Assembly: GCF_016908145.1 (NCBI RefSeq) | Contig: NZ_JAFBDI010000018.1 | Coordinates: 1 to 46,426, forward strand | Origin: Marinitoga litoralis | GTDB taxonomy: Bacteria; Thermotogota; Thermotogae; Petrotogales; Petrotogaceae | DNA: 46,426 nucleotides | Direction: 5' to 3' | Shown here: in pieces, positions 31,299 to 36,348 of the stretch | Numbering within the stretch: the first letter of the stretch is position 1 | Layout: each line of letters opens with the position of its first letter | Notes under the pieces: generated by a model | The model's database searches: none | Told to the model about the DNA's origin: nothing | Seen by the model: only the letters and a program-made list of their open reading frames with translations | Program-made: the position numbers and the translations under genes

Positions 31299-31832
31299 AT
31301 GTTTAAAAAAGTTGATGTTATCACAATGGGTTTAGATAAAATATCTAACTCTCCTGTAGTTTTTCTGAGGATAGAAAATACACATTTAGGAATTCCAATA
31401 TGGATTGGCGCTTGTGAAGCGACATTCTTAGCTTTAGCAATAAACGAACAGGAAACACCAAGACCATTAACTCATGATTTAATAATTAGTATTTTGGAAA
31501 ATGAAGGATATAGTATAAATAGAGTAGAAATACATAATATGGAGGAAAATATTTACTATGCAAATATTATATTAGAAAAAGGCGGTATAGAAACCACTAT
31601 TGATTCTAGACCGTCAGATGCTCTTATACTTGCAGTGAAAAAAAGAGTACCTATATATATAAAGGATAAAATAATAATTGATAATGGAATAGACTTATCC
31701 TTTATACCTGTTGAAAATGATGAAGAAAATCAAGAAGAAGATAAAAGAAATGAATTTAAGAAATTTTTGGAAAATTTTGACATAGACACAATAAAAAAAC
31801 ATTTCTTTGATGAGGGGAAAAAAGATGATTAA
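31299..31832 (+). CDS. Bifunctional nuclease family protein (DUF151)
   Basis: 177 aa. The BFN domain fills the first ~130 residues, with family motifs IWIGACEATFLALAIN, PRPLTHDL and IDSRPSDALILAVKKRVPIY. The best-studied relatives (plant BBD, Thermotoga TM0160) show nuclease activity in vitro or a structural role only. The acidic C-terminal tail (ENDEENQEEDKRNEFKKF) lacks a full UVR motif. Ribosome site AAGGAAGTG; the end overlaps the prenyl synthase start by 8 bases. Confidence 0.9.
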   Translation: MFKKVDVITMGLDKISNSPVVFLRIENTHLGIPIWIGACEATFLALAINEQETPRPLTHDLIISILENEGYSINRVEIHNMEENIYYANIILEKGGIETTIDSRPSDALILAVKKRVPIYIKDKIIIDNGIDLSFIPVENDEENQEEDKRNEFKKFLENFDIDTIKKHFFDEGKKDD

Positions 31833-32667
31833 AATTAATGAATTTAAAAAAGTTTTTGAAGATGAATCAGAAAAAATATTTGATTCATTGGGTGTTATAG
31901 ATATTTTAAATGATTCTATAAAATATTCATTTTTTTCTGGAGGTAAAAGGCTTCGACCCTGGATTATTTATAATATTGGACGATATTATAACATAGAAGA
32001 AGAAATTTTATATAAAATAGGGTTCGCTGTTGAAGTATTACATACAGCCTCATTGATACATGACGATTTACCAGCTATTGATAATAGTGATTATAGGAGA
32101 GGAAATGAAACAAATCATAAAAAATATGGTGAATGGGCAGCAATTTTAACAGGCGATTTAGGATTTATATTACCTTTTAAGATTTTATCTGATAATAATT
32201 TATCAAAACTTAATAGTTTTTTTTCTGAAATAATTATTAAATTAATAGAAGGAGAAACTTTAGACATTGCATTTGAAAAAAAATTATTTGTACCTTCAAA
32301 GAACCAGATTGAAGAAATGTATGAAAAGAAAACATCTTCATTATTTGAATTTTGCTTTTCTTATGCTCCTTTCTTAAAAGATAATTATAATGATTTTGAA
32401 ACTTTAAGAAAAGTTGGGAAAAGTTTTGGATTAGCTTTTCAAATATACGATGATTTAAAAGATTTGTATGGTACATTTGACGAAGTTGGGAAAGATTTAA
32501 AAAATGATGAAAACAAATACACTCTTCTTAAAGTTATGGATTCTATAGAAGCTAAAAAATATGCAGATATGTTATTTGATGAAGCTATATTATCTCTTAA
32601 AAAATTAAATATGGAATTTTTGGTTGAAGAGTTAATAAAAATCAAATCTTTGATTGAAAGGAAGTAA
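31825..32667 (+). CDS. Short-chain polyprenyl diphosphate synthase (FPP/GGPP type)
   Basis: 280 aa from ATG 31825, with GAGGGG upstream; an ATG 18 bases further out is too far inside the preceding gene. It condenses isopentenyl units into C15-C20 diphosphates. The first Asp-rich motif is HDDLPAIDNSDYRRG (DDxxxxD, the bacterial FPP-synthase form), the second is YDDLKDLYG. GGKRLRPW is the substrate-binding block. Chain length cannot be told. There is no dxs or other isoprenoid gene nearby. Confidence 0.92.
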   Translation: MIKINEFKKVFEDESEKIFDSLGVIDILNDSIKYSFFSGGKRLRPWIIYNIGRYYNIEEEILYKIGFAVEVLHTASLIHDDLPAIDNSDYRRGNETNHKKYGEWAAILTGDLGFILPFKILSDNNLSKLNSFFSEIIIKLIEGETLDIAFEKKLFVPSKNQIEEMYEKKTSSLFEFCFSYAPFLKDNYNDFETLRKVGKSFGLAFQIYDDLKDLYGTFDEVGKDLKNDENKYTLLKVMDSIEAKKYADMLFDEAILSLKKLNMEFLVEELIKIKSLIERK

Positions 32668-32668
32668 C

Positions 32669-35203
32669 ATGGCGAAAAAAGAAAAAAACAAAGAAAAAGA
32701 AGTGAAAGAAAATTCTGAAAAAAAAGCTAAATTTAATATAAAGGCTATTCTAGGTATTTTTAATAAAATACCCATTAAAGGGGTTTCATTAAATATTGAA
32801 AAATTAAAGCAATTGGATAAAAAGAAAAGGATGATATATCTCTCATCTTTAGTTATAATAATTCTATTAGTTGTAGGTGGGGTTATTTTTTTAATTCCAA
32901 GATTCTCAACCAGAAAATTAAATGTTGAAAATCAAGCAGAAACTGCAGCTATTTCGAATTTATTTATATATGTACCTCCAGATGCATTTCCGTATAAAAA
33001 AACTTTTACAATAAAATCATTAAGAGAAAATTCAGCTGAATATCAAAATTTAAAAACATTGGGAAATTTATACGGCCCAATATATGAAATTATACCTGAT
33101 GATAATAAAGAGGAATCATCATTAAAACCAATTAAAATAAAATATAAAATACCAATGGAATTATATTATGGAGATTCATTTAATAATTTTTCAATAGTGT
33201 ATGCTTCAGATGACAATCCTCCAGTAATTAAGAAAATGTCTGGTGGAGAAATCTTTAAAGACGAGTCTTTAGGAGCATATGTAGTACAAGTTAATACATT
33301 TCATTTTTCAAAATTTGGATTATATGTAGATCCAAATCCAAAAGAAGTAGACTTTGGTTTAAAAACACTAATTGAAAAGCCTGCTTCACTTGAACCAGAT
33401 ATTATATTAGTGCCGGGAGTTGATAGTAATTTTTTAGGGTTTATTCCAAACACTCAAACTATTAACAATATATATGGTGAAAATATTTGGAGTTTATATT
33501 TTCCTAACAGAACAATATGGAATTATAGGTATCCTTTATTAGAAACAAAACCAAAAAGTTATATGGATGCTTTTTTTGGTTATTACATAAGAACAGGCTC
33601 TAATAGTTATTTAGAATTTGAAGCGGAAAGATTTGCCTTGGAATTAAAGGCTAAAAAAAATAAGCAATTCGATATTATAACTCAAGGAATAGGTGGACTA
33701 ATAGTAAGATATGCTTTAGAAAATCATCCTGAAATAACAAATGTCAGATCAATAACAATGTTTTCTCCTCCAAATAAGGGTATTAATACAGTTAACCCGA
33801 TATATTATAATGTTATTTATAAAAAGAGTCCAGAAATAATAGAATTAACTTATGGATTGAATAAAGAAGAGTATAATTCATTGTTTTTAAACATAACTTC
33901 TAAAATGGAATTGATATCGTCTTATTATAAAGAACTTTTACCAGATTCTGAATTCATTAGTAAAATAATAAAATCAAATATAAGAAAAGATATAGAATAT
34001 AATATTATATGTGGAACTGTTCCAGATATAAATGTACATATTGAAAATACTAAATTAGCAAATTTTTATCCTGAACTTATAAAAGGATATGGTGATGGTT
34101 TAGTAACAATAGATAGTGCAAAAATAGATGGAGTTAAATTTTATTCATATGAAATGCCATATAACAAACTATATTCCGATAATAATGTTTTAACTTTTGT
34201 TCAAAGTTTATTGTCTAAAAATATTGAAAAAGTAGAAATTCCAAATATTAATGATGATAATTTTCCAGAAACCACAAAAGAAGTTATTGAAAAAATTAAG
34301 GTTGAAGAAAAAGAAAAGGAAAAACGTTCTGCTATTTTTGAAAAAAGTAATAAATATACACAAAAGAATTTTATTGAATTTAAAGAACAATTATTATATT
34401 TAGAAAATATAAATTACGGTAAGATAGTAAATTTAAATAATAATATCTTTGTACTTACTAATAAAGGGGTATATAATTTAGACGGTAAAAATATTTTAAA
34501 TAAAAATATATTAGGTAGTATTATATATAAAGATAGATTATACATAACCTCTAATGATGGAATTTATGCAATAGATGAAAGTTCGGACAGTTTTGTGAAA
34601 ATTAAAAATATAGATTTTGAATTACATAATAGAGTATATTATCTTCCAGAAATAAGAAAATATATTTATGTTGATTATGAAGACGGCCTAGCAGATGTAT
34701 ATGAAAATGAAACTTTGATATCTGAAAATATTCAATTTGATTCATTAAAAGTAATAAATAACGAGTTTTATATAATATTAGGTGATAGAGTCTTAAAAAG
34801 AAAAGAAAATAATTGGGTAACTATAGTTAATAAATCAGGTATAGAAGATTTGCTTGAGGAAAAAATAGGTAATTTTGTTGATTATTATTCTCGAGCATAT
34901 TTGATATATTTATTAACCTCAGACTATAAGTTAATAGTATATGACACAAAAAATGAAAAAGTTCAGATATTAGGAGATAGTGATGTAGGAAAATTAAAAT
35001 TATTAGAAAATAATAATTTATTATGGATATTTGATAAGAACTATATTACTTATATTGATTTGAAAAATAAAGTATTTCCAGGGGATTATCAGTCAATTTT
35101 AGATTTTGATATTATGGATATTGAATTAAATAATGATTCATTATTAATATTTATTAGAAAAAATGGGGGATTTGAGTTATGGAAAGGTATTATAAAAAAT
35201 TAA
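32669..35203 (+). CDS. Membrane-anchored lipase-fold pseudoenzyme with C-terminal propeller-like repeats
   Basis: 844 aa from ATG 32669 (AAGGAAG upstream). A lysine-rich cytoplasmic N-terminus precedes a single membrane helix (about 53-76). An all-beta segment follows at about 90-225, and an alpha/beta-hydrolase domain at about 235-500 resembling bacterial triacylglycerol lipases (IILVPGVD; FDIITQGIGGLIVRYALE; GYGDGLVTIDSAK). The nucleophile elbow G-x-S-x-G reads T338-Q-G340-I-G342, so the catalytic Ser is Gly. The usual catalytic His position (xNHxxL) appears as PYNKL. The last ~270 residues look like beta-propeller blades. It probably binds a ligand or protein on the outer face of the membrane; function unknown. 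Confidence 0.65.
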   Translation: MAKKEKNKEKEVKENSEKKAKFNIKAILGIFNKIPIKGVSLNIEKLKQLDKKKRMIYLSSLVIIILLVVGGVIFLIPRFSTRKLNVENQAETAAISNLFIYVPPDAFPYKKTFTIKSLRENSAEYQNLKTLGNLYGPIYEIIPDDNKEESSLKPIKIKYKIPMELYYGDSFNNFSIVYASDDNPPVIKKMSGGEIFKDESLGAYVVQVNTFHFSKFGLYVDPNPKEVDFGLKTLIEKPASLEPDIILVPGVDSNFLGFIPNTQTINNIYGENIWSLYFPNRTIWNYRYPLLETKPKSYMDAFFGYYIRTGSNSYLEFEAERFALELKAKKNKQFDIITQGIGGLIVRYALENHPEITNVRSITMFSPPNKGINTVNPIYYNVIYKKSPEIIELTYGLNKEEYNSLFLNITSKMELISSYYKELLPDSEFISKIIKSNIRKDIEYNIICGTVPDINVHIENTKLANFYPELIKGYGDGLVTIDSAKIDGVKFYSYEMPYNKLYSDNNVLTFVQSLLSKNIEKVEIPNINDDNFPETTKEVIEKIKVEEKEKEKRSAIFEKSNKYTQKNFIEFKEQLLYLENINYGKIVNLNNNIFVLTNKGVYNLDGKNILNKNILGSIIYKDRLYITSNDGIYAIDESSDSFVKIKNIDFELHNRVYYLPEIRKYIYVDYEDGLADVYENETLISENIQFDSLKVINNEFYIILGDRVLKRKENNWVTIVNKSGIEDLLEEKIGNFVDYYSRAYLIYLLTSDYKLIVYDTKNEKVQILGDSDVGKLKLLENNNLLWIFDKNYITYIDLKNKVFPGDYQSILDFDIMDIELNNDSLLIFIRKNGGFELWKGIIKN

Positions 35204-36348
35204 TTATATTATTCTTTCTTTTGTTTTCTGTTATAATTTTGTCGCAAACTGCTTTAGATAAAGCAGAAGTCTATTATTTTAATGGTAAAAGTGCTTTTCA
35301 AGTTGGGGAATATAATAATGCAGAAAAGTTTTTCGAAGAAGCATTAAAATTAACAGCACAAATTGAAATAAAGTATCCAGATATTAGATATATGTTAGGT
35401 TGGGCAAAATTTTACTTAAAAAAATATAAAGAAGCAGAAAATTATTTGAAATATTATACAGATGATCCAAAAGTTCAGCTAGCATTAAAAAGTATTAAAG
35501 AAGGAAACGTTCAAGAAGAGTTAAGTTTTAGATCATTAAAAATTCAATCAACAGAATCTACTGTTACGAATGAATCAACTTCAAATGTTAAGATTGGATT
35601 GTTTTATTATATTATTACAACTGCAGTAATATTTATAATAATAGGGATTTCAGGCTTCCTTATATATTTCTTTGTATTAAGAAAATACTCATTTAATGTT
35701 CAAACTGAAAATAAAGTTGAAAGTGTTGAAAATGAGGAAGAAGCTGAGACTACTGAAGAAGAAATTATACCATTAGAAGAAGTATTAGAAGTAAAAATTG
35801 ATGAACTGGAAGAATTGTGGTATGAATATGAAAAAATGAAGAATAAACTTGATGTTGATGAAGAAGAAATTTCAGTTGAAGAAAATTTAGAAGAAATAGA
35901 TGTGGATAGTTTATTAAGTGAAGATTTTGAAGAAGATACTAATTTAGATATAGAGGATCTTGAAGATGCGGTGAATGAAAACGAAACTGTCGAAAATAAA
36001 AATGAACCTATTGAAGATAATACTTCAGAAGAACTTCAAGTAGAAAAAGATATGAAACTCGATGAGGAAGAAAATACAATAGAAGATATAATAGAAAATG
36101 AAAAAATAAAAGATTTGAGTGAAATAGAAACAGTAAAGCCCAATGTAGATGTTCTTTCTAAATATAATAAAATAATTAATGAACCTGAAGGAAAAGTTGT
36201 TGTATCAAACATAAAAGGTTTAGAAAGTTTAGATGAAATAGATAAAGAAGTTAATAAAAAAGGTGGTCAATATACAAAAGGAGATTTACACAACATCTTT
36301 AAGGAAATATTTGCAGATAAAAATAGAGATCAAGTTAGTATAGAATAA
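35179..36348 (+). CDS. TPR protein with central membrane helix and long acidic cytoplasmic tail
   Basis: 389 aa. The signal peptide (about 1-23) is followed by two to three TPR units (NGKSAFQVGEYNNAEKFFEE, DIRYMLGWAKFYLKKYKEAE) at about 27-105. A second membrane helix is at about 139-168. A very acidic region of about 200 residues follows, with repeated EE/DE blocks and a possible coiled coil (IDELEELWYEYEKMKNKL). The layout puts the TPRs outside and the acidic tail inside. It starts 25 bases inside the preceding gene, so the two are translationally coupled and probably act together. No homologue of known function recognised. Confidence 0.6.
   Translation: MERYYKKLIILFFLLFSVIILSQTALDKAEVYYFNGKSAFQVGEYNNAEKFFEEALKLTAQIEIKYPDIRYMLGWAKFYLKKYKEAENYLKYYTDDPKVQLALKSIKEGNVQEELSFRSLKIQSTESTVTNESTSNVKIGLFYYIITTAVIFIIIGISGFLIYFFVLRKYSFNVQTENKVESVENEEEAETTEEEIIPLEEVLEVKIDELEELWYEYEKMKNKLDVDEEEISVEENLEEIDVDSLLSEDFEEDTNLDIEDLEDAVNENETVENKNEPIEDNTSEELQVEKDMKLDEEENTIEDIIENEKIKDLSEIETVKPNVDVLSKYNKIINEPEGKVVVSNIKGLESLDEIDKEVNKKGGQYTKGDLHNIFKEIFADKNRDQVSIE

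Follow-up and report, generated by a model that had tools for sequence, protein, structure and literature searches.

The window, the whole stretch of 46,426 nucleotides that was analysed (on contig C18 of genome G000), carries on its plus strand, at 32669..35203, a gene for a pseudolipase-propeller protein of 844 amino acids plus stop, recognised from the open reading frame (ORF) and from family alignments. The ORF is real: it opens with ATG at 32669, has AAAGGAAG just 5′ of this ATG and has a stop that ends at 35203. The gene is present as a single copy in its own 2.29 Mb genome. Directly upstream lies a polyprenyl synthase-type gene (31807..32667, plus strand), and a TM0160-like gene stands at 31299..31832 on the same strand; both neighbours are kept where the gene pair described below is lost. 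The gene that follows, at 35179..36348 on the plus strand, encodes a TPR protein (the TPR partner), and the first 25 bases of this gene, from 35179 on, are shared with the end of the pseudolipase gene.

The first 57 residues of the pseudolipase are basic (K+R 18, D+E 7) and are followed by the one hydrophobic segment found by hydropathy, residues 58-76 (32840..32896, plus strand), so that the membrane anchor claimed in an earlier note on this DNA is borne out. An N-terminal hydrophobic segment occurs in 59, and a later one in 4, of the 61 family ORFs that are 700 aa or longer. Residues 97-228 (32957..33352) form a beta-rich domain, delimited by alignment A6 and by low-confidence strands in an AlphaFold2 model, in which no Pfam or PDB family was recognisable. 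A ZU5-like identity for this domain was not supported; the best PDB match had E 0.83 and no Pfam family was found in more than one of 31 members. Profile comparison and the family alignment place a lipase-fold domain without Ser and His at residues 229-545 (33353..34303). Within it, family and profile alignments locate the nucleophile elbow TQGIG at residues 338-342 (33680..33694), where Gly340 replaces Ser; YGDGLVTIDSAK at residues 474-485 (34088..34123), where Asp476 occupies the catalytic Asp position and is invariant; and PYNKLY at residues 497-502 (34157..34174), where Tyr498 lies opposite the catalytic His. The landmarks VPGVD, TQGIGGLIVRYALE, YGDGLVTIDSAK and PYNKL were all found where they had been reported. 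From about residue 566 to residue 844 (34364..35200) the protein is a C-terminal beta-propeller according to the AlphaFold2 model and its fold matches. All of these segments are read on the plus strand.

The first AlphaFold2 model, built from 5 sequences, was confident solely in the C-terminal part (pLDDT about 82 for model 529-680). The hydrolase and beta domains had pLDDT values mostly about 20-50 in the models from 5 and from 3 sequences, and the second run (3 sequences), with the lipase domain alone, reached a mean pLDDT of 38. In this second model a strand (334-339) turns at 340 into a helix that begins at 341, and the surrounding blocks have pLDDT 52-71; the model is otherwise poor, and within it the predicted strand-turn-helix at 334-341 looks like a nucleophile elbow. 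Fold searches with Foldseek/VIA-align used the first model and so tested the propeller only. Model 511-789 matched propellers, the best being the LRRK2 WD40 domain (Z 16.1 over 262 residues, rmsd 4.5), with YncE at Z 14.9, and the Foldseek propeller matches included BamB (E 3e-7 to 2e-6). The propeller-like repeats that had been noticed after the hydrolase thus correspond to a beta-propeller in the predicted model, with which the fold matches agree. Since no single propeller family stands out, this part gives a fold and no function.

Relation to lipases and the catalytic positions

Among 35 family members, Pfam models matched as follows: DUF7379 in 32, Palm_thioest in 26, PGAP1 in 16 and Lipase_2 in 9. 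The counts for DUF7379 (PF24096) and Palm_thioest (PF02089) were taken at E 0.1 or better, and the window protein itself scores below the curated cut-off of both; a search of NCBIfam with the pseudolipase gave nothing useful. Alignment A1 comprises 35 hand-picked sequences, fragments excluded. By hhalign against intact Thermotogota lipases (alignment A2), E was 2.3e-22 for the whole protein and 4e-25 for the domain alone. Since Pfam matches occur in most members and the profile-profile values are this low, the relation to lipases is not due to chance. The A2 lipases are short, keep Ser, Asp and His invariant in 15 sequences, and connect at E about 1e-7 to family I lipases with solved structures; the hydrolase domain alone matched family I lipases (PDB 1OIL, 1CVL, 1TAH) weakly, at E 0.08 to 0.24. 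These single-domain Thermotogota lipases (AHS.GG, DG.VP and a conserved His), which turned up as elbow matches mainly in families f10 and f11, are the best profile match and share the fold and the order of motifs with the pseudolipase, but their triad is intact and their ORFs, of about 320-500 aa, have neither a propeller nor a membrane-anchored beta domain. Bacterial family I lipases likewise differ from it in being active secreted enzymes without anchor or propeller.

In the register of the profile alignments, which rests on the intact paralogues and on PDB lipases, Gly340 corresponds to Ser, Asp476 to Asp and Tyr498 to His. The earlier placement of Gly340 at the nucleophile position agrees with this alignment to intact lipases; that of Asn499 at the His site does not, Tyr498 being placed there instead, in a register that could slip by one. 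Across the family, the Ser site is occupied in 66 rows of a 67-row alignment (Gly in 49, Glu in 10, Asp in 6 and Ser in 1) and one further row has a gap. For this alignment loci L042-L071 were omitted as repeats, identical ORFs were collapsed and ORFs below 300 bits were omitted; the 66 rows cover 65 of the 78 genomes with the gene, G050 appearing twice. The His-site column, read in 63 rows, holds F in 41, W in 10, Y in 6, A in 4, and S and V in 1 each, with His in 0/63. The catalytic Asp, on which the earlier note was silent, is kept in 63/63 rows. Ser and His occur together in 0 rows, and at 85% conservation the 67-row alignment has no conserved His in the lipase domain. Relatives with an intact triad, which would have counted against the replacement of the catalytic residues, are thus not present among these rows. 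One row alone, L009 (G016), has Ser at the nucleophile site (ANSVG), and it is without the His; this looks like a chance change within a dead family. Asp or Glu at the Ser site is restricted to f10, bar one Asp row in f8 (L020).

Since Ser and His are lost family-wide, the family is, as far as sequence can say, an old and conserved pseudoenzyme and not a decayed gene. The proposal of a former lipase that now serves as an extracytoplasmic binding or scaffold protein has good support in so far as the Ser-His pair is gone throughout the family and no conserved His is present. Frame shifts or stops were seen in the pseudolipase gene at L006 (G004), L018 (G002), L021 (G019), L024 (G014) and L036 (G060), all five in genomes in which FlhA was found; these breaks are perhaps assembly errors, or real decay.

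The TPR partner and the gene neighbourhood

The TPR partner has a signal/anchor segment, TPR repeats, a second membrane helix and an acidic tail, which in the window protein holds 74 D/E and 22 K/R in 219 residues. Two hydrophobic segments were present in 17/17 partner sequences, and both partner sequences scanned gave Pfam TPR matches, which are short, of one to two repeats. The TPR gene lies directly 3′ of the pseudolipase gene in 16 of 20 neighbourhoods. The neighbourhoods without an adjoining TPR gene are L081 (f6) and L082, L084 and L085 (f10), and a partner profile found the TPR gene elsewhere in all four of these genomes. TM0160 is PDB 1VJL, and from this together with the gene order at L090 the pair would correspond to the T. 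maritima loci TM0162/TM0163. The flanking block (plsC-type, TM0160-like and polyprenyl synthase genes) remains in f2 and G052/G055, which have lost the pair; eight loci of pair-less genomes were covered, and the G033 contig stops at the polyprenyl synthase gene. No flagellar gene cluster was found around either gene in the 20 neighbourhoods and in 4 of 8 unlinked TPR neighbourhoods.

Two arrangements in these neighbourhoods were observed in passing. In f2 (Kosmotoga-like; L132 to L137) the place after the polyprenyl synthase gene that the lost pair would have occupied is taken by a short convergent ORF, which, to judge from its glycine-rich start, resembles the N-terminal region of a protein kinase. 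In f10 (L140, L141 and L142) the TPR gene follows a block resembling miaA, dnaX, a PilT-like ATPase, prfA, upp and rho, gene names that were read from translations, with PilT-like alone backed by a family search. It is also f10, where the TPR gene sits by this PilT-like block, that has Asp/Glu and not Gly at the Ser site of the pseudolipase.

Distribution of the pair among Thermotogota

Distribution was determined in 103 Thermotogota genomes. The pseudolipase was found in 78 at E 6e-22 or better, with 6 more giving at best a short match to the elbow, at 1.5e-10 or worse, and the TPR partner in 77 at 3.5e-32 or better, with two others at 2.6e-7 or worse. Both genes were present in 77 genomes, the pseudolipase alone in 1 (G065), the TPR gene alone in 0 and neither in 25. 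FlhA was found in 80 and FliG in 79 of the 103. Among the FlhA-positive genomes 78/80 have the pseudolipase and 77/80 the TPR gene; among the FlhA-negative ones the pseudolipase is present in 0/23 and the whole pair is absent. The two FlhA-positive genomes without the pseudolipase, G013 (80% complete) and G089 (92% complete), also lack the flanking TM0160-like gene, and therefore probably represent assembly gaps. G065 (71% complete) has the pseudolipase and FlhA, with no match to TPR or FliG.

The 23 FlhA-negative genomes comprise all 17 of family f2, G052 and G055 of genus g25, and G084-G087 of genus g32. They reflect three separate losses, in f2 (17/17), g25 (2/4) and g32 (4/4), which fall in three different families; in two of these, flagellated relatives remain (g25 lies within f5 and g32 within f10). 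In f10 the pseudolipase and TPR genes are far apart, yet both are missing from g32. Since the losses span three families, the f10 genes are unlinked and the flanking block is kept where the pair is gone, the co-loss is more than linkage. Three random losses matching the same three of about 152 taxonomy branches would have a probability of about 2e-6, a crude figure that ignores genes lost with motility.

To look beyond this phylum, 390 genomes, Thermotogota included, were searched and 103 had a match; the non-Thermotogota matches were short and nearly all at the elbow, that in G366 being in the propeller part. Since matches there cover only short stretches, no full-length relative is present in the 287 sampled non-Thermotogota genomes. 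A scan of genome contigs gave one locus, in Marinitoga lauensis, and one scan of viral contigs gave no relative.

Profiles for chemotaxis, pili and the P-ring gave other patterns. CheW was found in 86 of the 103 genomes, including six (G021, G022, G035, G052, G055 and G085) without FlhA, FliG or the pair. PilT was above its cut-off in 78 genomes, which take in nearly all of f2 as well as g32, G052 and G055, and not f1. FlgI was found in 84, which include all 80 FlhA-positive genomes and g32. Since these profiles differ, the pair tracks the rotor and export genes more closely than it tracks chemotaxis, pili or the P-ring. PilT as a shared trait, an idea that came from the TPR gene near a PilT-like gene in f10, was rejected on its different pattern, and the pair as a replacement of the P-ring was rejected on the presence of FlgI in all 80 FlhA-positive genomes. 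Kosmotoga pacifica is non-motile with a typical toga, as described in an excerpt of PMC5217533; in its genome (G021) both the pseudolipase and the TPR gene are absent, and the pair is therefore not needed for the toga. The earlier suggestion of a possibly new envelope component was consequently too general, since the pair follows the flagellum (78/80 against 0/23) and is absent from a toga-bearing species.

A candidate flagellar accessory pair

The pseudolipase and TPR genes are co-inherited with each other and with the flagellum. Since the pair is kept in flagellated Thermotogota and missing from flagellum-less ones, the pseudolipase is probably an undescribed part of the Thermotogota swimming machinery. 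Against this, the loss of motility can also take with it genes that have nothing to do with the motor, and neither gene lies within a flagellar gene cluster in the neighbourhoods read. We consider it reasonably likely that the non-catalytic, membrane-held lipase-propeller and the TPR protein form an accessory pair of the flagellum that is specific to Thermotogota and probably acts as a scaffold in the periplasm.

The main rival to the scaffold reading is a need of flagellar assembly and not a static scaffold, in which the pair would provide room in the cell wall, place the basal body or escort ring and rod proteins. The distribution fits any function confined to flagellated cells, assembly factors often contain propellers or TPRs, and BamB is among the many propellers in the Foldseek list. 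FlgI, however, stays in g32 without the pair, which is therefore not needed to keep the P-ring gene, and Pfam gives no export or wall-binding domain; an assembly role is on balance unlikely. Less likely still is a general envelope or toga scaffold lost alongside motility by chance or through a shared lifestyle. That the genes adjoin lipid-type and other housekeeping genes fits such a role, which was the guess of the earlier note, but Kosmotoga pacifica has a toga and neither gene, and the three separate losses coincide to an extent for which the crude random estimate given above is very small.

Chemotaxis is usually lost when flagella are lost, so the pair might belong to chemotaxis or to a surface sensor feeding it; the six genomes that keep CheW without the pair make this very improbable. 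We give hardly any credence to the pseudolipase still being an enzyme, acting through another nucleophile or a donated residue. Asp476 is invariant and 16/66 rows have Asp or Glu at the Ser site, but most rows have Gly there (49/66), the domain is devoid of a conserved His and the His site is mostly aromatic.

For the accessory pair that we favour, the topology, physical interaction, motor location and scaffold role are what we infer. The single helix at its N-terminus would anchor the pseudolipase in the inner membrane, its domains facing outward, the dead lipase surface and the propeller would provide binding faces in the periplasm, and the TPR membrane protein would be the second half of the same scaffold. 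Together with the TPR domain, the pseudolipase would build a scaffold that surrounds the basal body, or hold one in place, and might for instance position the stators or fix the motor within this envelope. A bolder form, in which the Thermotogota motor has its own periplasmic scaffold or ring of dead lipase-propeller and inner-membrane TPR protein, is held tentatively, at a little under an even chance. If true, the motor of an early-branching phylum would have recruited a dead hydrolase independently of the case of PflC in Campylobacter.

The pair may be comparable in logic to PflA/PflB together with the dead protease PflC. In the excerpts consulted, PflB is an inner-membrane-anchored TPR scaffold and TPR membrane proteins anchor the Campylobacter stators (PMC7990780), and in the C. 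jejuni motor PflC, which is homologous to HtrA but lacks the triad, forms the lattice of the medial disk (PMC12222027). PflA and PflB are periplasmic or inner-membrane TPR proteins and lineage-specific motor parts (excerpts of PMC7990780 and PMC11870540), and the TPR partner shares with the PflA/PflB scaffold a predicted inner-membrane anchor and the TPR repeats. The likeness is one of analogy and not of shown homology: PflA/PflB have long TPR arrays and neither lipase nor propeller, and the short matches in the TPR partner speak against a close resemblance. PflC, a dead hydrolase homologue that serves in a motor (PMC12222027, excerpt), offers a parallel to the pseudolipase, but it has a protease fold with PDZ domains, and the two are likened by description and not by sequence.

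The torque of a motor and the number of its stators are determined by parts specific to each lineage, and the known parts of this kind come from a few well-studied groups (PMC7990780, excerpt). A survey of PflA-like proteins sought TPR genes near flagellar clusters, a criterion that by its own account may undercount (PMC11870540, excerpt); since the present pair lies away from flagellar clusters in the neighbourhoods read, it would escape such a survey. In the open-licence PMC literature no paper was found on the pseudolipase gene, the TPR partner or a Thermotogota motor accessory, and TM0162/TM0163 gave no relevant match; a proteome study of the toga (PMC3387000) and the genome paper of T. 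maritima (PMC3636130) were covered in excerpt. The pair adds two candidate motility genes in a phylum that figures often in debates on early bacterial envelopes, the pseudolipase being a second candidate for a dead hydrolase put to new use in a motor, and an orphan lipase-like gene becomes a testable motility gene.

A separate observation concerns FlgI in g32. A diverged FlgI stands by a FlgA-like gene at L148:7191-9081 (G084) and L149:7772-9654 (G086), without FliG/FlhA, and the g32 FlgI scores about 195-210 bits, compared with about 300 elsewhere. In L150 (G056) FlgH lies between FlgI and the FlgA-like gene, and it is missing in L148 and L149. In g32 the P-ring protein and its chaperone are thus kept without a flagellum.
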